From positions 124,001-188,000 of the forward strand of contig NZ_JAMQOP010000003.1 of assembly GCF_031624495.1 (NCBI RefSeq): 64,000 bases of DNA. The letters run 5' to 3'. This document shows, one piece after another, positions 7,493 to 38,380 of this stretch. The stretch is from Halogeometricum sp. S1BR25-6 (lineage in GTDB: Archaea; Halobacteriota; Halobacteria; Halobacteriales; Haloferacaceae). Under the pieces are notes generated by a model. It was not told where the DNA came from and searched no databases. It was given only the letters and a program-made list of their open reading frames with translations. The first letter of the stretch is position 1; each line of letters begins with the position of its first letter. Made by a program: the position numbers and the translations under genes.

Positions 7493-10354
7493 ATGACGTC
7501 GTCTTCGGCTTCCATCCTCGATACGTCGTCCGTGGTGCTTGTCGGAACGAGCGACTGGCTCGGCCAGTTCGCGACGCTGCTCGAAACGCGGACGACGGCG
7601 ACCGTTCAGCGAGTCGAAACCAAGGCCGACGCGCTGGCTGCCTTCCGGAATCGAACGACGGACTGTCTCGTCACCGAGTACGCGCTCGGCGAAACGACCG
7701 GGCTCGAACTGCTCAGAGAGATTCGCACCGAGACCACCGTGTTCCCGGTGATCGTCGGCGCCGCGTCCGGGAGCGAAGCCATCGCCAGCGAGGCGATCGG
7801 TGCCGGGGTGACCGACTACGTCGCGCTGACGGACTCGTCCGAGCGGATGGCGGCGGAGCTTCTTGACCGGACGGAGCGCGCGATCCGCACCACACAGCGC
7901 TCGATCACGCGAAGCGACCGCGCCAGGCAGTTCGACGCGATTTTCAACGACTCGCAGACGGCGACCTGGGTCCTCGACCCGGACGGCTCGCTCGCCCGGG
8001 TGAACCAGACGGCGCGAGAGATGATCGACGAGGACGTCGAAGCCGTCGTCGGCGAACCGTTCTGGACGCTCCCCTGGTGGTCGCAGACCGACACGACCGA
8101 GGCGGAGGTCCACCGGATTATCGACGACGCATTCGACGGGGCGTTCGGTAACGTCGTCGTCTCGCAGTCGTCGCGTCTCGACGACCCGCGCGTCATCGAT
8201 CTCTCCGTGCGTCCGGTCGAGAACGAACGCGGCGACCTCGTTTCTATCGTCGTCGAGGGTGTGGATATCACCGAACGCGTCACTCTCGAACAGGATCTCC
8301 GTCGATCCGAGGAACTCCACCGCGTGACGCTCAACAACATGACGGACACCGTCCTCATCACGGACGAGACCGGGGAGTACACGTACGTCTGCCCCAACGT
8401 CCACTTCATCTTCGGCTACACGGCCGCGGAGATCCGCGAACTGGGAACGATCGACGAACTCCTCGGTGAGGACCTCTTCGACCGGGAAGACCTCGCAGCG
8501 GAGGGCGTCCTCAAGAACATCGAGACGACCGCGACCGACAAAGCCGGGCGCGAGCACACGCTGTTGGTCAACGTCCGCGAAGTCTCGATTCAGGACGGAA
8601 CGCTCCTCTTCAGCTGTCGGGAGATCACGAAACGCAAGCAGCGCGAGGAGGCGCTGGCGACGCTCCAAGAGACCGCTCGGGATTTCCTGTACGCCGAAAC
8701 CCACCGCGAGATCGCTCACCACATCGTCGACGACGCCTCCGGCGTTCTCAACCTCGATGCCAGCGCGGTGTATCTCTTCGACGCCGACGCCAACGACCTC
8801 GAACCGGTCGCGTACTCCGAGACGATGCGGGAGCTGAACGGTCCGCTTCCGACCGTCCACGCCGACGGCGCGACCCTTCCGAGCTACAGCTTCGTCGAGG
8901 ACGAAGCCCTCTTTTTCGACGACGTTCACGACGCGGAGCGACTCGAGAACCCGGCGACCGACCTCCGGAGCGTGACGTACATTCCGCTCGGCAACCACGG
9001 CGTGTTCGTCGCGGGATCGAGCGAAGTCGGCGTCTTCGACGACGTGACCCGAGAGTTAGCCGACCTGCTCGCGGCGACCGCCGAGGCGGCGCTCGACCGC
9101 GTCTCTCGCGAATCGCGACTCCGAGAGCAAGACCGCACGCTGCACGCTCAAAACGAGCAACTGACCGCCCTGAACCGAACCAACGAGACGATTCGGGAGA
9201 TCGACCAAGCCATCGTCCAAGCGGAGACGCGCGAGGAGATCGACCACACGGTCTGTGAACTGTTGACGGCCGACGACCGGTTCCGATTCGCCTGGATCGG
9301 AACGATCGACTCGACGACGGGGACCGTCGAGCCGCGGGCCTGGGCGGGCGCCGATCAGGGATATCTGGACAGCCGTTCGTTCACCATCGCCGCCTCGGGG
9401 ACCGACCCGGCCGGACGGACCGCGGCGACCGGCGAGGTGACGATGGTCTCGAACGTCGCCGCGGGCCTTCGCGAGGAAGCGTGGCGAAAGGACGCGCTGG
9501 CCCGCGATTACCTCTCCGTGCTGAGCATCCCCCTCGTGTACAACGACCTCACGCACGGACTGCTCACGGTCTACGCGCCGACCCGGGACGCCTTCGACGA
9601 CACGGCGAAGGCCGTCTTAGCCGAACTCGGCGAGACCATCGCGTCGGCGCTCAGCGCGATCGAACGGAAGAACGCACTGCTCACCACGTCGATGACTCGC
9701 GTCGAGTTCGCGGTCGACGACTCGGCGTTCGTCCTCTCGCGACTCGCGAAGGACGCGGCGTGCACGCTCTCGTATCAAGGCGGCGTGCAGCAGTCCACCG
9801 AGGGCAGCTACGTGTTCGTCACGGTCGAAGACGCGTCGTTGGAAGACGTCGCCGACGCCGCATCGCAACTGGTCGCGATCGACGACGTCCAGCGGATCAG
9901 CACCGACCGCGACGGCGGGGTCCTCCGAGTGCGCCTCACGCAGCCGTTTCTCGCCTTGGAGTTGGCCGACCACGGCGCCGTGTTCCGCGAGGCGACCGCC
10001 GATCCCACCACCACGACGCTCGTCATCGATATTCCGAACAGCAGCGACGTCAGAACGATCACCCAACTCGTCCGCGAGACGTTCTCCGGCGTCGAGCTCC
10101 GATCGAAGCGGACGCTCGATCAATCGGTCGAACACGACCTGTACTCGACGTTCCTCGAGAAGCTGACCGACCGGCAGCTCGAAGTGATCCAGACGGCCTA
10201 CTACAGCGGGTTCTTCGAGTCGCCGCGCGAGAACACCGGCGAGGACATCGCGACGACGCTCGGAATCTCCCCGCCCGCCTTCTACAAACACGTCCGGACC
10301 GTGCAGCGAAAACTGTTCGAGACGCTCTTCGAGGAGCACAAGCTCTCCGGCTGA
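7493..10354 (+). CDS. Bat-type multidomain sensor regulator: pseudo-receiver, PAS, PAS, GAF, GAF, HTH_10 (953 aa)
   Basis: The ATG at 7493 begins directly before the first beta strand (MTSSSASILDTSSVVLVGTS); upstream in-frame codons look non-coding. In order: receiver-like domain (1-130), two PAS domains (about 145-275 and 280-390), two GAF domains (about 400-560 and 590-740), the bacterio-opsin-activator region, and a C-terminal HTH_10 (LTDRQLEVIQTAYYSGFFE, then IATTLGISPPAFYKH). Such proteins sense redox, light or small ligands and regulate transcription directly. In the receiver, Glu62 (CLVTEYAL) replaces the usual phosphoacceptor Asp and the conserved Lys is absent, so phosphotransfer is unlikely. 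Confidence 0.9.
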   Translation: MTSSSASILDTSSVVLVGTSDWLGQFATLLETRTTATVQRVETKADALAAFRNRTTDCLVTEYALGETTGLELLREIRTETTVFPVIVGAASGSEAIASEAIGAGVTDYVALTDSSERMAAELLDRTERAIRTTQRSITRSDRARQFDAIFNDSQTATWVLDPDGSLARVNQTAREMIDEDVEAVVGEPFWTLPWWSQTDTTEAEVHRIIDDAFDGAFGNVVVSQSSRLDDPRVIDLSVRPVENERGDLVSIVVEGVDITERVTLEQDLRRSEELHRVTLNNMTDTVLITDETGEYTYVCPNVHFIFGYTAAEIRELGTIDELLGEDLFDREDLAAEGVLKNIETTATDKAGREHTLLVNVREVSIQDGTLLFSCREITKRKQREEALATLQETARDFLYAETHREIAHHIVDDASGVLNLDASAVYLFDADANDLEPVAYSETMRELNGPLPTVHADGATLPSYSFVEDEALFFDDVHDAERLENPATDLRSVTYIPLGNHGVFVAGSSEVGVFDDVTRELADLLAATAEAALDRVSRESRLREQDRTLHAQNEQLTALNRTNETIREIDQAIVQAETREEIDHTVCELLTADDRFRFAWIGTIDSTTGTVEPRAWAGADQGYLDSRSFTIAASGTDPAGRTAATGEVTMVSNVAAGLREEAWRKDALARDYLSVLSIPLVYNDLTHGLLTVYAPTRDAFDDTAKAVLAELGETIASALSAIERKNALLTTSMTRVEFAVDDSAFVLSRLAKDAACTLSYQGGVQQSTEGSYVFVTVEDASLEDVADAASQLVAIDDVQRISTDRDGGVLRVRLTQPFLALELADHGAVFREATADPTTTTLVIDIPNSSDVRTITQLVRETFSGVELRSKRTLDQSVEHDLYSTFLEKLTDRQLEVIQTAYYSGFFESPRENTGEDIATTLGISPPAFYKHVRTVQRKLFETLFEEHKLSG

Positions 10355-29919: not shown

Positions 29920-31053
29920 TCACCACCGACCGTCGATTGCACGCTGATACACCGTTTCTGCCTGCTCGGCGACAGCATCCCAGTCGTATTTCCCGGCACG
30001 TTCGAGTGGGTCCTGTGGCGGTCGATCGCCGTCTAGCGCGGCGTCTAGTTGGTCTGCGATTGCGTCCACTGTCGGCTCGACGAGATAGCCCGCATCACCG
30101 ATTACCTCGCTCGCTGCGGACTCGGGATGCTGTGCAGCGATTACAGTACAGTCGGCCGCCATCGCCTCGGCGAACGTGATTCCGAATCCCTCGCGCGTCG
30201 ACGGTGAGGCGAACACTCGAGCGGCGCGCATGTGTCCGAGGACGTCCTCGTAGTCGTCGAGGAACCCGAGGAACTCGATCTGATCGGCGAGGGTGGCAGC
30301 CTGCTTCTGAAGACGGTCCATCTCCGGTCCGTCACCGATGATACCGAGCGTAGCATCGTGACGTTCGGCGATAGTGTCGAAGGCCTCTAAGAGAAGAGCG
30401 ACGTTCTTGTCTTCGATGAGGCGGCCAGCAAACAAGACATCGTAGCTCTTCTCCGGAAGTGGTGCATTTCGGATTTTTTCGACATCAATGCCGTTTGGCA
30501 CGACCTCGATACGGTCTCTACTCGGGCCGATTTCAGCGAGTCGGTCAGCCGTGATTCCCGAAACAGCAATCGGATACTGTGGAACGCGGGCCGTGAGCTG
30601 TTCTATCGTCTTTCCGAACGGGGCGAGAGGACCAAGGTACCCCTCCCAGTAGTCGCGCCACACTTCGTGCCACGTCGTCACGACTGGTGTGTTCGTTCCG
30701 AGTGCGGCAAGCTTTGAGGAGAGGACGGGGAAGAAGGGGAAGACGGAGGTGACAACGAGATCGTGTTCGTTGGCTCGAAGTCGTTCCGAGAGTGGCCTTA
30801 GGGATCGTGCCGAGAAGTCAAGCGCCTCAGTAATTGAACGCCTGTCATCAGTATAAAGGTCAGCGCTGGGGGCGACTGCTTGTAGGCGTAGGTTCCCGTA
30901 CTTGGCTTGCTTAGGGCCGTCCCAATAGTGTCGACCGTAAATTGTCACGTCGTGTCCGTTGTCTGCGAGGCGCGTTCCGATTTCGTGGATACGCTTTTGT
31001 GCGCCTCCAGTGACGAAGGGATGGACAACATTCGAAATGAACCCGATTCGCAT
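29920..31053 (-). CDS. GT4-family glycosyltransferase, 377 aa
   Basis: MRIGFISNVVHPFVTGGAQK is the GT-B N-terminal strand with the GGA loop. VPNGIDVEKI and the FASPSTREGFGITFAEAMAA block (EGFG, ExxA) are the GT4 donor-site motifs. It transfers a sugar from an activated donor, probably to a lipid- or protein-linked glycan at the inner membrane face. It stands divergent from the lasso-cluster ABC exporter, so either surface-glycan work or decoration of the peptide is possible; the former is more usual. The 235 bp up to that exporter show no gene. Confidence 0.9.
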   Translation of the reverse strand: MRIGFISNVVHPFVTGGAQKRIHEIGTRLADNGHDVTIYGRHYWDGPKQAKYGNLRLQAVAPSADLYTDDRRSITEALDFSARSLRPLSERLRANEHDLVVTSVFPFFPVLSSKLAALGTNTPVVTTWHEVWRDYWEGYLGPLAPFGKTIEQLTARVPQYPIAVSGITADRLAEIGPSRDRIEVVPNGIDVEKIRNAPLPEKSYDVLFAGRLIEDKNVALLLEAFDTIAERHDATLGIIGDGPEMDRLQKQAATLADQIEFLGFLDDYEDVLGHMRAARVFASPSTREGFGITFAEAMAADCTVIAAQHPESAASEVIGDAGYLVEPTVDAIADQLDAALDGDRPPQDPLERAGKYDWDAVAEQAETVYQRAIDGRW

Positions 31054-31288: not shown

Positions 31289-33124
31289 ATGGTTACAGAC
31301 AGTATTTTGTCTGTTGCCAAAACCTCGTACATTACCGTCGATATGAACCCAGAACTCCGAGAGAAAATCACAGCGTTCTATGAGGCAGCGCTGTTTCGTC
31401 CTAAACTCGGCCTCGCTATCGTTGCACTGAGTTTTGGTACTGCACTGCTGGAGGGTGTTGGACTCGGATTTCTTCTTCCGATTCTTGAGCTTGCGCAATC
31501 TACCGCTCCCACTAGTGACGCTAATGGTGTCTTAGGTGTCTTCGTACAGCTATACGATTTCGTCGGGATTCCGTTCACCTTAGAATACCTTGTTCTCGGC
31601 GTTGCGGGCGTTATGGCTGTCCGGTTCACACTCAGTTTCCTCACCGCGTGGCTTCGTTCTGTCCTCAGTTTGAGCTACCAGCGTGAGCTCCGACAGAAAC
31701 TGTTCAATTCGTTCGTCTACGGTCCAATCGAGTATATTGATGAAGCCGGGTCAGACGAGCTTCTCAACAGTCTTATTACTGAAACGAATCGGTCCGCGGG
31801 AATCGTCATGGCTGTGTTCAACCTCACTGAAGTCGTTCTCCGTGGGTTGATCTATCTCGTCATCGCCGCCGTTCTCTCGCCAGCGTTGACACTCGCAGCA
31901 GTTATCGGCCTCGGAGTGACCACGCTTTCCGTACGGTATGTGCTTGAACCCGCATATGCCGTTGGCGACGAAGCCGCGGACGTGAACAGCCGCATTCAGT
32001 CTGTCTCGCAGTCTACGCTACAGGGAATGCGCGATGTTCGTCTGTTCAACATGCGAACCGAAGTGGTCGACCGGATGACTGACTTACTTGACGGATACGT
32101 CTCCGCTGGTGTCAGACTCCAACGGAATCAGGCGGCACTCAACAGTCTCAATCAACTGCTGAACGCATTCGTCGTCTTCGGCCTCGTCTACGTTGGATTC
32201 AGTTTCACCGGTCTCTCAGTGGCTGAACTGGGTGTTTTTCTCTTCGCCGTCTTTAGACTGTCTCCGGTCGTAAATCAAGTCAACAATACGCTCTACCACT
32301 TGGACGGACAGCTACCTCACTTCCTCCGGGTCCGCTCACGAATTCAGGAACTCTCCGAACGGACGCCTGAATCAGACGGCGCATCTCAAGCTATTGAATC
32401 GGTCGACTCTCTTACATTCGACACTGTGTCGTTCTCGTACGAGGAGGGTGAGCGGGCGATCGATGATGTTTCGTTTTCTGTTGAGCGGGGACAATCTATT
32501 GCGCTTGTTGGACCCTCTGGCGCAGGAAAATCGACCATCGTCTCGCTCCTCGGTCAACTTCACTTGCCGGATAGTGGTCGTATTCTTGCCGACAGCACTC
32601 CAATCAGTGAACTTGCTCCCGAGCAGTGGCGCGAACGCCTTGCAGTCGTACGCCAGGATCCCTTCCTTTTCAGCGATACACTCTGGGAGAACGTGACTGT
32701 CGGAAACCGTGATGCCACCCAAGACGAGGTTGAACGTGCCTGTGCTATCGCTCGAGTAACTGAGTTTCTGCCGGACCTTCCGAATGGCTACCAAACGAAC
32801 CTCGGCGAAGATGGCGTACGACTCTCGGGTGGGCAGCAACAACGCGTTGCGATCGCTCGTGCACTCCTAAAGGATGCGGATGTATTGGTTTTAGACGAAG
32901 CGACCAGCGAACTCGATTCGAATATTGAACGGGATGTATACGACGGCATCGCCTCGGTCGAAGCAGACTACGCGACAATTAGTATCGCTCACCGACTCTC
33001 GACTATTAACGACGCTGACCGCATCTATACGCTCGTTGACGGCTCTGTCGCCGAGGTTGGGACACACGAACAGCTGTTAGCAAACGATTCGACCTATGCC
33101 GAACTGTACGCGATACAATCCTAA
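31289..33124 (+). CDS. ABC transporter, fused permease and ATPase (lasso cluster exporter), ~611 aa
   Basis: Five to six membrane helices (about residues 38-330) precede a nucleotide-binding domain with Walker A (VGPSGAGKST, near 408), the signature LSGGQQQRVA (near 512) and Walker B (VLVLDEATSELDS, near 533). This is the McjD/PglK-like exporter or flippase type. An alternative start MNPELREKITAFYEAALFRP at 31343 matches family N-termini better. It precedes the HPr-kinase-like gene and converges with the lasso biosynthetic genes, so peptide export and immunity are likely. A glycan flippase role is the alternative. Confidence 0.85.
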   Translation: MVTDSILSVAKTSYITVDMNPELREKITAFYEAALFRPKLGLAIVALSFGTALLEGVGLGFLLPILELAQSTAPTSDANGVLGVFVQLYDFVGIPFTLEYLVLGVAGVMAVRFTLSFLTAWLRSVLSLSYQRELRQKLFNSFVYGPIEYIDEAGSDELLNSLITETNRSAGIVMAVFNLTEVVLRGLIYLVIAAVLSPALTLAAVIGLGVTTLSVRYVLEPAYAVGDEAADVNSRIQSVSQSTLQGMRDVRLFNMRTEVVDRMTDLLDGYVSAGVRLQRNQAALNSLNQLLNAFVVFGLVYVGFSFTGLSVAELGVFLFAVFRLSPVVNQVNNTLYHLDGQLPHFLRVRSRIQELSERTPESDGASQAIESVDSLTFDTVSFSYEEGERAIDDVSFSVERGQSIALVGPSGAGKSTIVSLLGQLHLPDSGRILADSTPISELAPEQWRERLAVVRQDPFLFSDTLWENVTVGNRDATQDEVERACAIARVTEFLPDLPNGYQTNLGEDGVRLSGGQQQRVAIARALLKDADVLVLDEATSELDSNIERDVYDGIASVEADYATISIAHRLSTINDADRIYTLVDGSVAEVGTHEQLLANDSTYAELYAIQS

Positions 33125-33249: not shown

Positions 33250-34161
33250 ATGTACTCTTACGCAGCGTACGATTTAGTGATTCGTTCGGAATTTGAACTC
33301 CCGGAACTGCCTGCCACGGCAGATTCTGAGAAACCCGACGTCGAAATCAAACGTGGCGATGTTGAGTCTGTTCCGGAGTCATTAGATGAGTTCGGAGAGC
33401 ACCGCATCGTTGCCACGGCAGATGTCTGCCGACTGACCTACGAAAATATTGGTTCGTTTCGAATCGAAAACGGCCAAGAGATCGTCTGTGATCTCGAATC
33501 AGATGCGGTCCCAGAGCAGGACTTCTTCCGTGGTTTACTCGAAAACGAGATGCTCGGGTTGATCTTGCACCAGCGGAGACATCTAGTCCTCCACGCGAGT
33601 GCTGTCGCAGTAAATGGAAAAGCGGTAATCTTTCTCGGACCCAGAGGCGCCGGAAAATCAACGACGGCAGCAGCGTTTGAGGTGGCTGGTCACTCGTTGC
33701 TCGAAGACGACGTGGTCGGTATCAGACTAGAGGATGAGACTCCAATGGTTGTCCCGGGCGTTCCCCAACTCCGATTGAAACCCGATGCGGCAATCGCGCT
33801 CGGGCTGACCGCGGAAACGGTCGAATCGTGGTATGAAAAGCGGTACTATCCGACCGATGTGACTCCCGATCCCATTCCCCTGGCGGGCTGCTACATCCTA
33901 CAGTCAGGCGACGAGATTAGTCTTGAGGAGTTGTCTGGCACTGAACGATTGCTAGAACTGATTCCACATACCTATCTTCGTGGATTGTTGGTCGACACTG
34001 AACAATCCTCTACTCATCTTGAACAGTGTTCACAGATTGCCGAGCAGGTTCCTTTCCGTGTGTTGAAACGTCCACAGAACCATGAGCTTCTCCCTTCGCT
34101 CGTTGAACAGGTCGTCGACGACGTAGAATCGAATAATCGTCTTGAGGGCGACACGGGATAA
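33250..34161 (+). CDS. HPr-kinase-like serine kinase of the lasso cluster, 303 aa
   Basis: The C-terminal half has a P-loop (VIFLGPRGAGKSTTAAAF, residues 127-144), the preceding LHASAVAVNGKAV strand typical of HprK-like proteins, and a downstream acidic pair (LLEDDVVGI). The N-terminal half is not the HprK regulatory domain. Stand-alone proteins of this type occur in lasso-peptide clusters, where the studied ones phosphorylate the peptide (paeninodin PadeK, ThcoK). Here the gene faces the precursor gene, 79 bp away. Acting on the precursor is a strong inference; the site is unknown because the precursor does not end in Ser. Confidence 0.82.
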   Translation: MYSYAAYDLVIRSEFELPELPATADSEKPDVEIKRGDVESVPESLDEFGEHRIVATADVCRLTYENIGSFRIENGQEIVCDLESDAVPEQDFFRGLLENEMLGLILHQRRHLVLHASAVAVNGKAVIFLGPRGAGKSTTAAAFEVAGHSLLEDDVVGIRLEDETPMVVPGVPQLRLKPDAAIALGLTAETVESWYEKRYYPTDVTPDPIPLAGCYILQSGDEISLEELSGTERLLELIPHTYLRGLLVDTEQSSTHLEQCSQIAEQVPFRVLKRPQNHELLPSLVEQVVDDVESNNRLEGDTG

Positions 34162-34240: not shown

Positions 34241-34402
34241 TTAGTTCTCGACCGAAACGACAGAGCCGACGAGCGGGGTATTTTTGCTGTACTGATCGTT
34301 ACCCATTCCTGTCTTGTTTTTTTGTTTCGTAATCGTCTCGATATTCCCGTATTCAGTCACTTCAGGCGCAGTGTACGACTTCTTCGATGAGTTCCCTGCC
34401 AT
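34241..34402 (-). CDS. Putative lasso-peptide precursor, 53 aa
   Basis: Read leftward from ATG 34402: the leader begins MAGNSSKKSYTAPEVTEYGN and continues IETITK. It matches the lasso leader pattern YxxPx(L/V)xxxGxxxxxT exactly (Tyr10, Pro13, Val15, Gly19, Thr25), which the RRE/PqqD protein recognises. The remainder is QKNKTGMGNDQYSKNTPLVG, then SVVSVEN. The only acidic residues after Thr25 are Asp36 and Glu52, so a 7-9 residue ring would need to start at Lys28, Asn29 or Lys30, or a 10-residue ring at Gln27; none is the usual Gly. It has its own TATA box and lies 97 bp beyond the cyclase stop. Confidence 0.82.
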   Translation of the reverse strand: MAGNSSKKSYTAPEVTEYGNIETITKQKNKTGMGNDQYSKNTPLVGSVVSVEN

Positions 34403-34428
34403 TAGCTCACACGAACATTGTCATAGCT

Positions 34429-34436
34429 ATATAAAA
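34429..34436 (-). promoter_or_regulatory. TATA box of the precursor gene
   Basis: On the minus strand the region reads ttttatatagc, with its centre about 30 bp before the precursor ATG at 34402. A short or absent leader is expected. A dedicated promoter would allow more precursor than enzyme, as is common in RiPP clusters. Confidence 0.6.
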
Positions 34437-34498: not shown

Positions 34499-36397
34499 TC
34501 ACAGGCTTTCAGACGCTGCGCTCTCTTCACCCGTCCGGTTTTTGTGTGATCTAAACCAGGTGAACAGCGAAAGCGCTCGCCATAGCACTTGCGCATCTTG
34601 CGTATTTGGATCTGTGCTAAACCGCTCGTAAGCTGCTCGTAGCTCGGCATCATCAAAGTAGTCCGTCGATTGCTCAGTCTCAAGGAGCAGCCGCTGAATC
34701 AGATCGTCCTCTAATGCAAGCGAATTCCAGAATGCTTCGCTCATATCCGTCTTCCAAGGTCGGGCTCGGATTTTCTCTGGCAGCAGGTCCGCAAGCGCTC
34801 GACGAAGTATCGAGCGGGTCCATCCATCTGAGAGCTGTTGAGTCGCCGGAATCGCCAGCGAAAACTCTACTAAACGTACGTCTGTGAACGGGTAGCGAGG
34901 TTCGATACCAAACTGAGCGGCTGCTAAGTCTGCTGTCTCTAGGCTCGCGGTCATCCGTCCGTCAAGGAGCGATCGATACTGTCGCCGCCGGGCTGTTTCT
35001 CGGAGTACCGAGACTGAATCCCGCTGTTTCAATCGCTTTCGAACCCCTATCCGTCGGGCATATCTTGTGTTGAGTGCGGGATTCTCGGCCGCTTCAAGCA
35101 CTGGATTTCCTCGTAGTCGTGCGTTCATTCGCTTTGTCCAGCTTGGAATTAGCGGTTTTGCGGCGTGTCGAATCAATAGATGCTTGGCTGGTGCACCAGT
35201 GACTTCTCCCATCGCTCTCGTCTCCCGAAGTAGGCGACGCCACCGGCCTGTCCGGAGTAACTCCGGAAGCAACCCTAATCCGTATCCTGCTGCACTGTCG
35301 CCCAAGGCCCCCTCAAGCAAGACGTCCACATCAACTTCGTTGGCGCGTTTCGACCGCTCCCAGATGGCATGGTGCATGGGGTCGTGTGGTGGTCTGTCAT
35401 ATTGCTGTTCCATGCACTCTCTATCTCCAAACGATCCGACATCGTCGAGAAACACGTAGTGCGATTCAACTCCATCGCGACAAGAGACCGCTTCGATAAA
35501 CTCCCGTTCGTCACTCGTCGGTGCTTGGTCATACACGTTTGAGAAGGTGTGTAGGAGTTGATCGTCCGGAAGATCGTTCCGCGCGGTGACCGTAATCGAC
35601 GACGAATCGAGGCCACCGCTGAGTGATGTGCCTGGCCTTCCCTCGGTTCGGAGTCGACAGCTCACTGCCTGCTCGAACAGGTCACGAAACCGACGTTCGT
35701 ATGCTGCGTCGGATTCTAGCGTAAGAGTTCTGTGGGGGTTGAGATCCCAATACTGCCGTTCTGTTGCCCGTTCGTCGTTGATCACTTTCACGTGCGCTGG
35801 CGGCAGTCGTCTGATCTCTTGATAGAACGTCCGCTCCTTATCCTCAAACAAGCCGACGAGAAAGTCCCCGATCGCTATGTCATTGACTTCGATTGAGACG
35901 AACGGGAGTGTGAGAAGCGCTTTTATCTCGGATGCGACTGCAAGGAGACCGTCTTCTTCGTAGTAGTAGATGGGTTTGACGCCAAACCGATCTCTGGCAC
36001 AGAACAACGTTTTGGCATCCGTGTCCCAGATCACGAACGCGAACGACCCAACAATGTGGTTGACGCACTGCGCCCCCCATTTTCGATACGCTGAAAGGAG
36101 GAGATGACTATCAGGCATCCGTGTGAGCGGCGCTTCGATCGATAATCGATCAGCAAGTTCGTCTCGATTATCGACTCGGGCATCAGCTACGATGAGATGT
36201 TCGCCATCGCGATAGGGTTGCTGATCGTACCGAGATTCGGGTGTTGACTGTAGTTGTTGGTGTCCGAGGGCGACCTGTTCGTCGCGCCACGAGATTCGAC
36301 CGTCGGGTCCGCGATGGTCGATACTATCTAGCATCGCCTCTATCCGATCGTTCGATATCCTGTCCTCACGATCAAATAACACGACGAGTCCGCTCAC
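34499..36397 (-). CDS. Lasso cyclase, asparagine-synthase-like, 632 aa
   Basis: The N-terminal domain resembles the class II amidotransferase of asparagine synthase but starts MSGLVVLFDREDR, so the catalytic Cys2 is missing and no glutaminase activity is expected, as in lasso cyclases. The synthetase domain has the PPi loop SLSGGLDSSSITV (residues 258-270). Lasso cyclases adenylate an Asp/Glu side chain of the core and close the macrolactam with the N-terminal amine. It overlaps the B2 peptidase gene by 4 bp. Context, more than sequence, separates it from primary asparagine synthase. Confidence 0.9.
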   Translation of the reverse strand: MSGLVVLFDREDRISNDRIEAMLDSIDHRGPDGRISWRDEQVALGHQQLQSTPESRYDQQPYRDGEHLIVADARVDNRDELADRLSIEAPLTRMPDSHLLLSAYRKWGAQCVNHIVGSFAFVIWDTDAKTLFCARDRFGVKPIYYYEEDGLLAVASEIKALLTLPFVSIEVNDIAIGDFLVGLFEDKERTFYQEIRRLPPAHVKVINDERATERQYWDLNPHRTLTLESDAAYERRFRDLFEQAVSCRLRTEGRPGTSLSGGLDSSSITVTARNDLPDDQLLHTFSNVYDQAPTSDEREFIEAVSCRDGVESHYVFLDDVGSFGDRECMEQQYDRPPHDPMHHAIWERSKRANEVDVDVLLEGALGDSAAGYGLGLLPELLRTGRWRRLLRETRAMGEVTGAPAKHLLIRHAAKPLIPSWTKRMNARLRGNPVLEAAENPALNTRYARRIGVRKRLKQRDSVSVLRETARRRQYRSLLDGRMTASLETADLAAAQFGIEPRYPFTDVRLVEFSLAIPATQQLSDGWTRSILRRALADLLPEKIRARPWKTDMSEAFWNSLALEDDLIQRLLLETEQSTDYFDDAELRAAYERFSTDPNTQDAQVLWRALSLFTWFRSHKNRTGEESAASESL

Positions 36398-36837
36398 AAG
36401 GTTCCTCCATCATTAAGCGGTGGTAGTGCTTCATAGCGAGAAAGATCGTCTAAGTCTCCAATGAGTATCTCTCCTTGATGTTCGAGCCAACTGTGGGCTT
36501 TCACTTGATCGCTCTCTTTCTCCACACCAATCCGATGTATTGGTCGGTAGTCGTATAGTCGAAGTAGCGTTTCAGCCGTAAGAGAGCGGACGAGACAGGT
36601 TCGCTCTCCCGGGAGTGCCCGGTCGACGACTTCGATAGTCTGTACGATCCGCTCTGGCGTAGGATTTCCAGGGACGAGTCGTCCCACCCTCTCGGACATC
36701 CACAGCAATCGCGTTCGTGTTCGAGCAAACTGGGCGGTAGACACTACGGTCGGTAAAGAGAGAAGTAGACCTACTGCGCTCAGTAGTCGGATCTGATCTC
36801 CGGTACGGTATGAAAGAAAGGTCGATAACTTCGACAT
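36394..36837 (-). CDS. Lasso peptide biosynthesis B2 protein (transglutaminase-like leader protease), 147 aa
   Basis: I start at MSKLSTFLSYRTGDQIRLLS, 7 bp after the PqqD gene. An N-terminal hydrophobic stretch (LLSAVGLLLSLP) leads to the Cys-protease part with Cys81 (ERTCLVRSLTAE), His115 (VKAHSWLEHQGE) and Asp128 (ILIGDLDD), the triad of the B2/McjB family. The enzyme cuts the leader after the RRE protein delivers the precursor. Length is normal for split B1/B2 systems. Confidence 0.9.
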   Translation of the reverse strand: MSKLSTFLSYRTGDQIRLLSAVGLLLSLPTVVSTAQFARTRTRLLWMSERVGRLVPGNPTPERIVQTIEVVDRALPGERTCLVRSLTAETLLRLYDYRPIHRIGVEKESDQVKAHSWLEHQGEILIGDLDDLSRYEALPPLNDGGTL

Positions 36838-36844
36838 CCGCGTA

Positions 36845-37141
36845 CTAGGTTGAGCTGTCGGGTTTAATCTGAACGAGGTCTTTCTCCAGTAAGTCCGAGA
36901 GGAGCGCGTCAACGTCACTCTGACAGCGTTCGTATTCGACGTCGTACTCTGCCGTCACCGCCTCGTATACTTCTTCTACCGTTCGAGGCTGCTGAACTGC
37001 CTCCCAGATGAATGTCCCCACATCGTTCAGACCGAAGTATTTGCCCTCTTCCGCCTGTAGTATCACAGTCTCTCCGTCGATTTCCGTAGAGAGACTGTCG
37101 TCTGTAGCCACCACCGTCCCGGATTTCAGTTCGTCTTGCAT
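36845..37141 (-). CDS. PqqD-family RiPP recognition element (lasso B1), 98 aa
   Basis: Starting MQDELKSGTVVATDDSLSTE, it has the PqqD pattern: a three-stranded sheet (ETVILQAEEGKYFGLNDVGT) followed by FIWEAVQQPRTVEEVYEAVT and a helix pair. PqqD-like RREs bind the leader's YxxP region and present it to B2 and the cyclase. It is encoded directly before the B2 gene, as in most lasso clusters with split B proteins. Another start lies 18 bp upstream. Confidence 0.9.
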   Translation of the reverse strand: MQDELKSGTVVATDDSLSTEIDGETVILQAEEGKYFGLNDVGTFIWEAVQQPRTVEEVYEAVTAEYDVEYERCQSDVDALLSDLLEKDLVQIKPDSST

Positions 37142-37204: not shown

Positions 37205-38380
37205 CTATCTCTTGAGCTTCTTAAGTAGTTTCGGGATGAGCTTGAACGGCCGAATCAGATAGTACAGAGGATACAGTTTGGGAGGAAGCGGGAAGAACTT
37301 GACATCCACTTTCCGGGGGGCGAAAAGAACATCGATGAGCTCTTTGAACGACCCCCTGAGCGTATCATTGAGGAAGAAGACAACAGTCCATGGTTCAAGA
37401 TCTAAGCTCTCTCCAGTTGGATCGTATTGGAACAGTCTTGACGCAATGCTTGTACCAATTGTCGCTCGTCTGCAGTTCTGTACCTCTTCCTTGACCTTCT
37501 CTGGAATTTCCACCTTAGCGAGCTCAGCGGTTACACTGAGTCCGAATAGGACCGCAGTTTTCCAACCGTATCCCTCTGCCCGCGTGAGGACCGTTTCCCA
37601 TTCAATGTCGCGGTGAAAGAGCGCTGCGATATCACAGACCCATGAGAGCCGCGCCCAACCGTGTTTCGAGCCATGGGTGAGGAGTAACAGCGCTCTGTCC
37701 TCTGGTGACAACGCTTGTAATGTTCGTCCACCAACTGTGAGTGGTGTTCGTCGTTTCCAGAGATCCGTCACGACCCGTGCATTTGAGGCATTGCCGCCCG
37801 TGAACTGTGGTCGGAGCTCGATTTGAATATTCTCGTTCTCATTCTCAAACCTAAGCTCCCGTTCCCATCTGAAAAATGACTCGTCAACTAGTTTCTGTAA
37901 GGGAATCTCGCGAGCATTCGTTTGTTCATAGCCTGCTTCTCGTAGAATTTCTCGGGCGCGTGCGAGATCTTGTTGTCTGACGAGGACATCGAGGTCCTTG
38001 AACCATCGAGCGTTCAGATCCCCGTAGGCGAACTCGGAGAGGACTGGTCCTTTGTACGGAATAGCTTGAATACCGCTCTCTTTGAAAGCCTCTAAGACGC
38101 TGTGTAGTTCTTCGGTATGCTGTAGATTTTTCACCCCATTCATTCGATATTGGGATTCAAGGCTCTGGTAGACTTTCTCCGGGATTTTTGATTGAACGGG
38201 CTTGATTGATTCACGGAGATGTGAAGTCAGTCCGTGACTAGCTGCCAGTGGGAGTATCCGCTCCCAATCTGGATCTTCGCATGCTATCTTGTGAATGTGC
38301 TTGTCTGCATTGTCAGATCCTCCGGCTGACTGTACGATGTAGAATAAGATTTTTCCAGCCGGACTCCCTGGCATTGTCAT
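37205..38380 (-). CDS. Nucleotidyltransferase-family protein (NTP_transf_5-like) of the lasso cluster, 391 aa
   Basis: The family core is IQAIPYKGPVLSEFAYGDLN, then ARWFKDLDVLV (residues 104-134), with Lys110-Gly111 and the Asp129/Asp131 pair placed as in polymerase-beta-like nucleotidyltransferases. Homologues accompany lasso kinases; in pseudomycoidin the N protein is reported to take part in adding hexose to the phosphorylated peptide. It leads the leftward operon, 63 bp before the PqqD gene. A modification role on the lasso peptide is inferred from that precedent. Confidence 0.82.
   Translation of the reverse strand: MTMPGSPAGKILFYIVQSAGGSDNADKHIHKIACEDPDWERILPLAASHGLTSHLRESIKPVQSKIPEKVYQSLESQYRMNGVKNLQHTEELHSVLEAFKESGIQAIPYKGPVLSEFAYGDLNARWFKDLDVLVRQQDLARAREILREAGYEQTNAREIPLQKLVDESFFRWERELRFENENENIQIELRPQFTGGNASNARVVTDLWKRRTPLTVGGRTLQALSPEDRALLLLTHGSKHGWARLSWVCDIAALFHRDIEWETVLTRAEGYGWKTAVLFGLSVTAELAKVEIPEKVKEEVQNCRRATIGTSIASRLFQYDPTGESLDLEPWTVVFFLNDTLRGSFKELIDVLFAPRKVDVKFFPLPPKLYPLYYLIRPFKLIPKLLKKLKR

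Follow-up and report, generated by a model that had tools for sequence, protein, structure and literature searches.

Haloarchaeal lasso-type precursors with an invariant Lys-Asp pair suggest a departure from the known rules of ring closure

Lasso peptide precursors are recognised by a small set of rules. The leader carries YxxPxL at -17 to -12 and Thr (or Ile or Val) at -2 (PMC10368454); residue 1 contributes its alpha-amine to a ring closed on an acid at position 7-9, and use of the alpha-amine is part of the definition of a lasso peptide (PMC9266682). In known systems, production falls sharply when the ring is made one residue larger or smaller (PMC13352647). Metanodin is the first lasso peptide to begin with Asn (PMC12670498). 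A 2025 survey lists archaeal lassopeptide clusters as predictions only, known archaeal RiPP products being scarce, and we found no characterised archaeal lasso peptide in the literature searched.

The window, a stretch of 64,000 nucleotides from Halogeometricum sp. S1BR25-6, holds a complete lasso-type cluster, and the ORF at 34241-34402 is a real gene within it. The components are as follows.

29920..31053, minus strand: GT4 glycosyltransferase, a probable cluster member (63-70% identical copies lie beside eight related loci)
31289..33124, plus strand: ABC exporter, MsbA/HepA-like (NCBIfam/Pfam matches)
33250..34161, plus strand: HprK-like kinase (weak matches to HprK-related families; conserved beside the precursor in relatives)
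34241..34402, minus strand: precursor peptide gene (A), 53 aa (ORF translation; homologues in related clusters)
34428..34435, minus strand: TTTATATA, the TATA box of a promoter belonging to the precursor gene itself, 33 nt before the ATG
34499..36397, minus strand: lasso-type cyclase (C), position 2 holding Ser where the glutaminase Cys would be (587 bits with NF033535, whose cut-off is 525)
36394..36837, minus strand: B2 leader protease with conserved Cys and His (NF033537, 78.6 bits; PF13471)
36845..37141, minus strand: B1, a PqqD-type RiPP recognition element (RRE), whose frame extends to 37159 (PF05402, 76.5 bits)
37205..38380, minus strand: NTP_transf_5 family tailoring enzyme (PF14907, 202 bits)

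The open frame of B2 reaches 36918, its start being probably Met28, and its C108 and H142 are invariant in 24/24 sequences. The locus thus has what identifies a lasso cluster: an AsnB-like cyclase, an RRE (B1), a transglutaminase-like B2 and a YxxPx(L/V) leader with a correctly spaced Thr. The HprK-like kinase and NTP-transferase are present as in paeninodin-type clusters, and are kept in relatives. The genome contains one B2 and one lasso cyclase, both in this cluster.

Translation of 34241-34402 on the minus strand gives 53 codons, MAGNSSKKSYTAPEVTEYGNIETITKQKNKTGMGNDQYSKNTPLVGSVVSVEN followed by a stop. A sequence-only reading of the window had proposed this ORF as an overlooked precursor with a canonical leader; the exact match to YxxPx(L/V)xxxGxxxxxT (Y10, P13, V15, G19, T25), the cluster around it and the existence of homologues bear this out. 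The NCBIfam profile lasso_cyano matches residues 7-26, with E 3.5e-5 and under its curated cut-off, and it also matches 22/22 aligned family members, across which the Y, P, G and T of the leader are invariant and the YxxP-to-Thr distance is constant. From this constancy the leader would be predicted to be cut after residue 26. The peptide can be divided on this basis.

34325..34402, minus strand: leader, residues 1-26 (YxxPxV...G.....T-x); the canonical cut would fall after K26
34316..34324, minus strand: Q-K-N, residues 27-29, the segment that separates the canonical cut from the invariant Lys and varies in length across the family
34295..34315, minus strand: KTGMGND, residues 30-36, with invariant K30 and D36 at +6, the proposed ring segment
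34262..34267, minus strand: G46-S47, a conserved GS near the C-terminus, a likely kinase target (alignments)

The reading had also held that the core departs from the usual rules, and rightly: canonical residue 1 would be Q27, from which D36 is position 10. As it stated, D36 and E52 are the only acids downstream of T25, and neither glycine start has an acid at 7-9; Gly32 or Gly34 would put D36 at ring position 5 or 3, and we reject both as ring starts.

Upstream, the promoter box lies 29-34 nt from the ATG in 22/29 family members, against about 1 in shuffles, and it starts at 30-33 nt in 20/29, as would be expected for near-leaderless transcripts. Within the Lys-to-Asp segment, comparison of 11 pairs revealed 26 synonymous codon changes against 14 that alter the amino acid; both Lys codons and both Asp codons are in use at the conserved positions, with synonymous changes there in close pairs. 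Conservation, promoter box and synonymous changes argue against a chance ORF, a reading we reject.

Relatives were sampled from archaeal sequences, to which the comparison applies. A B2 search of 391 haloarchaeal genomes yielded 31 with a B2-like gene; reading of the wider regions and a precursor-profile search of three families gave 33 unique haloarchaeal precursors, the window's included, all of which occur with cyclases of one clade. Homologous ORFs adjoin the related cyclase in the related clusters examined; their absence was one of the things the sequence-only reading would have counted against its claim. By their sequences, lasso-type precursors with the core pattern K-x5-D are spread over several haloarchaeal families. 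One relative lies on plasmid pHALXA01 of Halopiger xanaduensis SH-6 (genome G242), the only close relative found in plasmid searches; the precursor at the same place there is missing from the PLSDB gene table, which is incomplete. A search of the wider phylum found this precursor type in a second class (genomes G655 and G955), and a search of genome contigs with the window cyclase found one distant clostridial match only. The core pattern of the window precursor is common to 38 further archaeal precursors in the sample searched.

Some individual loci are worth recording. In G655, a fourth precursor copy (L125, about 8918-9019) has a stop inside its tail (GGAGKSPGTADN, stop, GSG) and is apparently the decayed member of a four-precursor array. 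G472 encodes two window-clade cyclases and two divergent K-x5-D precursors with cysteines (L108 8058-8213 and L109 8252-8464; EKCSPGHDD... and DLKEGNGED...WC). In G355, a second leader peptide (L036 4801-4947, core ESGGTNDNAQCFSRAGKSDDYNPNC) sits beside a second kinase and has neither K-x5-D nor an acid at 7-9.

K-x5-D is present in 33/33 haloarchaeal cores, compared with a mean of 3.2 and a maximum of 11 for shuffled cores, in a family gathered with a profile built on relatives already bearing the motif, a search that also recovered leader peptides without it. Asp36, whose conservation the earlier reading had proposed to examine, is thus kept in every haloarchaeal core. Gly stands at Lys+2 in 31/33, and the ring-region columns besides Lys and Asp all vary. 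The residue preceding the invariant Lys is N, D or E in 32/33. Spacing from Lys to Asp never changes among the 33 precursors, while that from Thr to Lys drifts: 4 residues (14 members), 5 (9), 6 (3), 7 (5) or 8 (2), the longer stretches resembling inserted flexible linkers (EGSGTNK, ETGSGNNK). The five precursors of the second class read K-[VPAS]-[PS]-G-[TK]-A-D or near it, keeping the +6 register, but their Lys is preceded by K, A, K, G or T. In an outlier, G438 (T-Q-KRGRGQD), the Thr-to-Lys distance is 2, so that Q precedes Lys, Lys is canonical residue 1 and Asp is at 7. Lysine makes up only 2.8% of residues in the enzymes of the window cluster, and the precursors and enzymes of haloarchaeal lanthipeptides are depleted in it (PMC12144867).

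The conserved Asp falls at residue 9 to 13 from the canonical cut, and 17/33 haloarchaeal members have no acid at 7-9; hence, as judged from the encoded peptides, at least one lasso rule (a cut two residues past Thr, a ring of 7-9, an alpha-amine donor) is broken in the K-x5-D family. The sequence-only reading had offered alpha-amine rings from Lys28, Asn29 or Lys30, or a 10-residue ring from Gln27; these stand as the alpha-amine options, and the reading missed the side chain of Lys30 as donor. This donor is suggested by Lys and Asp being the sole invariant pair of the ring region while the Thr-to-Lys distance drifts. Canonical residue 1 is unconserved in the 33 members (mostly Q, N, T, G or S), as would be expected were it not the amine donor.

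If the cut were canonical and the alpha-amine still the donor, rings would have to be enlarged, to 10 residues in the window and to 9 to 13 across the haloarchaeal family. B2 and the amine chemistry would then stay normal, and members with spacing 4 (14/33) would have a standard 9-residue ring. However, changes of length all fall before Lys, never between Lys and Asp, and for this reason we consider such rings highly improbable. They are also at odds with the poor tolerance of ring-size change in known systems (PMC13352647), and with genomes G275, G476 and G080, each of which has one window-clade cyclase, one B2 and two precursors, of spacings 5 and 6, so that a single cyclase would have to make both 10- and 11-residue rings.

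Where B2 cuts can be approached through a second, canonical class of haloarchaeal lasso precursors (L038 13192-13368; L040 5340-5546; L097 7004-7159; L126 5591-5755), which has its own cyclase and kinase and a near-constant core, G-x-HFS-x-VD-GNSGTTGN, with a G1-D8 ring. G345, G104, G445 and G455 each combine a single B2 with canonical T-x-G1...D8 precursors (e.g. T-E-GRHFSRVD...) that have a cyclase of their own, and in G455 neither B1 nor B2 is present in the 13 kb around the canonical cluster. B2 is thus apparently shared between the canonical class and the window-type cluster and, being the sole one available to both, probably cuts at the canonical distance, two residues past Thr.

This bears on the readings in which the cut shifts. 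A cut just before Lys30, by B2 or by B2 and trimming, would let the Lys30 alpha-amine join Asp36 in a 7-residue ring, within the known range (PMC9266682). It would account equally for the invariant Lys and the fixed register, and is favoured by G438, where Lys is already canonical residue 1 and the cyclase may be sister to the window clade (support 88/69). Yet B2 would have to vary its cutting distance while cutting canonical precursors of the same genome at T+1, and an invariant side chain is not required at residue 1; we consider this reading unlikely, while taking it seriously. A cut before Asn29 or Lys28, giving alpha-amine rings of 8 or 9 residues on Asp36, seems to us slightly more doubtful again. 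Metanodin provides a precedent for Asn1 (PMC12670498), which also means that the novelty the earlier reading saw in an Asn start alone was overstated, and N, D or E does precede Lys in nearly all haloarchaeal members; for the 9-residue ring, spacing-4 members conform to T(-2), and in G655 the first position would be S, G or A. Both, however, need a sliding cut and give no reason why the second or third ring residue should always be Lys; the first position of the 9-residue ring has the highest entropy among columns K-4 to K+13, and in the second archaeal class the 8-residue ring would begin with K, A, K, G or T.

The cyclase has the residues of its PPi loop intact (SGGxDS), and most relatives with a clear start share its Ser in place of the glutaminase Cys of asparagine synthetase. 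This intact loop argues against a peptide that stays uncyclised on Asp36, such as a linear phosphopeptide, and against a role for the Lys-Asp pair in recognition only: K-x5-D precursors adjoin such a cyclase, and the window genome's one lasso cyclase is in the cluster. In favour, haloarchaea do have related leader peptides that are accompanied by a kinase, an NTP-transferase and an exporter and lack a lasso cyclase, and Bacillota are known to make linear polyphosphorylated peptides (PMC13381572); all told, we regard it as very unlikely.

In the cyclase tree the Thr-to-Lys spacing state changes at least 10 times. Cyclases of the second class fall outside the two haloarchaeal clades, for which reason the tree allows K-x5-D either to be ancestral or to have arisen twice. 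Few columns part the K-x5-D clade from the canonical one (T383, S476, F593), and no mechanism is apparent from them. A PDB sequence search returned only asparagine synthetases and one hydroxyamidotransferase, with no lasso cyclase among the matches. G086 is labelled canonical in the tree, though its core lacks an acid at 7-9; this leader peptide (L051 6853-7020), next to a lasso-type cyclase, has a core of nearly all Gly, Arg and Lys (GSKGKGRGRGRGRGRGASRGDGLGGGR) with no acid at a usable ring position.

What the sequence itself shows is the gene, its cluster, and a K30-D36 pair that is invariant in identity and in spacing. We tentatively prefer, at something short of an even chance, a canonical cut after which the side chain of Lys30 forms an isopeptide bond with Asp36 and a stub at the N-terminus stays free. 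We rank it first because cut site and Lys-Asp ring both stay constant, which would account for the drift, the two-precursor genomes and the shared B2. Against it, an ordinary 9-residue ring is possible in the spacing-4 precursors (14 haloarchaeal and that of G955), where Asp is canonical position 9; in G438 the alpha-amine would serve as well as the side chain; the cyclase columns separating the clades are few; and the L036 4801-4947 leader peptide lacks K-x5-D. We found no lasso cyclase with a Lys side-chain donor in the literature searched.

Maturation by way of the Lys30 side chain would begin with binding of the YxxPxV...T leader by the RRE and cleavage by B2 at the usual site, two residues past Thr25. 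The AsnB-like cyclase would convert the Asp36 side chain to an AMP ester, and the amine closing the ring would most likely come from the side chain of Lys30, to give a Lys30-Asp36 isopeptide macrolactam with a free stub, Q27-K28-N29, and a long C-terminal tail that may be threaded. The tail GS is a likely phosphorylation site, on the strength of the neighbouring kinase and by analogy with the paeninodin and Bsf kinases (PMC10368454, PMC9266682), and S47 is probably its target. The NTP-transferase, and perhaps the GT4 enzyme, which may glycosylate the product, would modify the peptide further, and the ABC pump would export it.

Taken together, the data suggest that the K-x5-D family closes its ring in a manner undescribed for lasso peptides. 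That archaea have a lineage of lasso-type cyclases linking Asp to the side chain of an internal Lys, with two free ends and a ring uncoupled from leader cleavage, has in our judgement somewhat less than half a chance of being right. If the Lys-Asp bond is real, side-chain macrolactams are within the reach of AsnB-like cyclases, rings could sit away from the N-terminus, and a lasso ring need no longer start at the cut site; if instead the cut slides, it is the T(-2) rule that falls. The family, whose short precursor gene is in any case easily overlooked, would escape genome mining that insists on an acid at 7-9.

Side-chain-to-side-chain amides are the chemistry of graspetides, in which Lys, Ser or Thr side chains are joined to Asp or Glu. 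The window peptide would share it if the Lys30-Asp36 bond is real; graspetides, however, are made by ATP-grasp ligases, whereas the ligase here is AsnB-like and accompanied by a lasso leader protease. With no ATP-grasp ligase in the Pfam/NCBIfam matches of the eight cluster proteins, we reject graspetide identity. We likewise reject a linear polyphosphorylated peptide, a cyclase-free type with an SpI-type leader peptidase, since cyclase and B2 are both present. Cyclase-free loci were met elsewhere in haloarchaea: L053, L049, L050, L052, L046, L114 and L133 have B1, B2, HprK-like kinase, NTP-transferase and mostly an ABC exporter, with no lasso cyclase nearby and none above cut-off in genomes G102, G016, G185, G323 and G036. 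They encode tiny leader peptides such as MKEYETPSVETYGTVEEKTNWWDHDDGYGKWS, and L046 (13226-16968) carries at least six consecutive ones of a single type, MTYEKPTLETYGRVESLTQ followed by a short, variable core that often includes GSEP. Such loci are possibly an archaeal, B2-using counterpart of the linear polyphosphorylated peptides.

Of the curated models, NF033528/NF033535 (lasso_cyano / lass_lactam_cya) come closest: the cyclase exceeds its cut-off, whereas the precursor stays under that of NF033528 and only its leader part aligns, weakly. Metanodin (PMC12670498) resembles the window precursor in having been missed, in lacking Gly, Ala, Ser or Cys at the right distance and in having Asn near the predicted start, but its Thr lies two residues upstream of the Asn and the other rules hold; in the window family the Thr-Asn distance varies and it is Lys that is invariant. 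The canonical haloarchaeal class (GRHFSRVDGNSGTTGNRG...) shares leader type, genomes and B2 with it, but obeys T-x-G1...D8 and uses a separate clade of cyclases, about 34-40% identical to that of the window. Paeninodin/pseudomycoidin-type systems have the same YxxPx(L/V)...T leader, split B1/B2, AsnB-like cyclase, HprK-like kinase, nucleotidyltransferase-like protein and ABC exporter. The window family differs from them in being archaeal, in the want of an acid at 7-9 after the canonical cut and in its Lys with Asp at +6; and where the last residue of paeninodin-type precursors is Ser, here it is Asn, with Ser47 six residues before the end.
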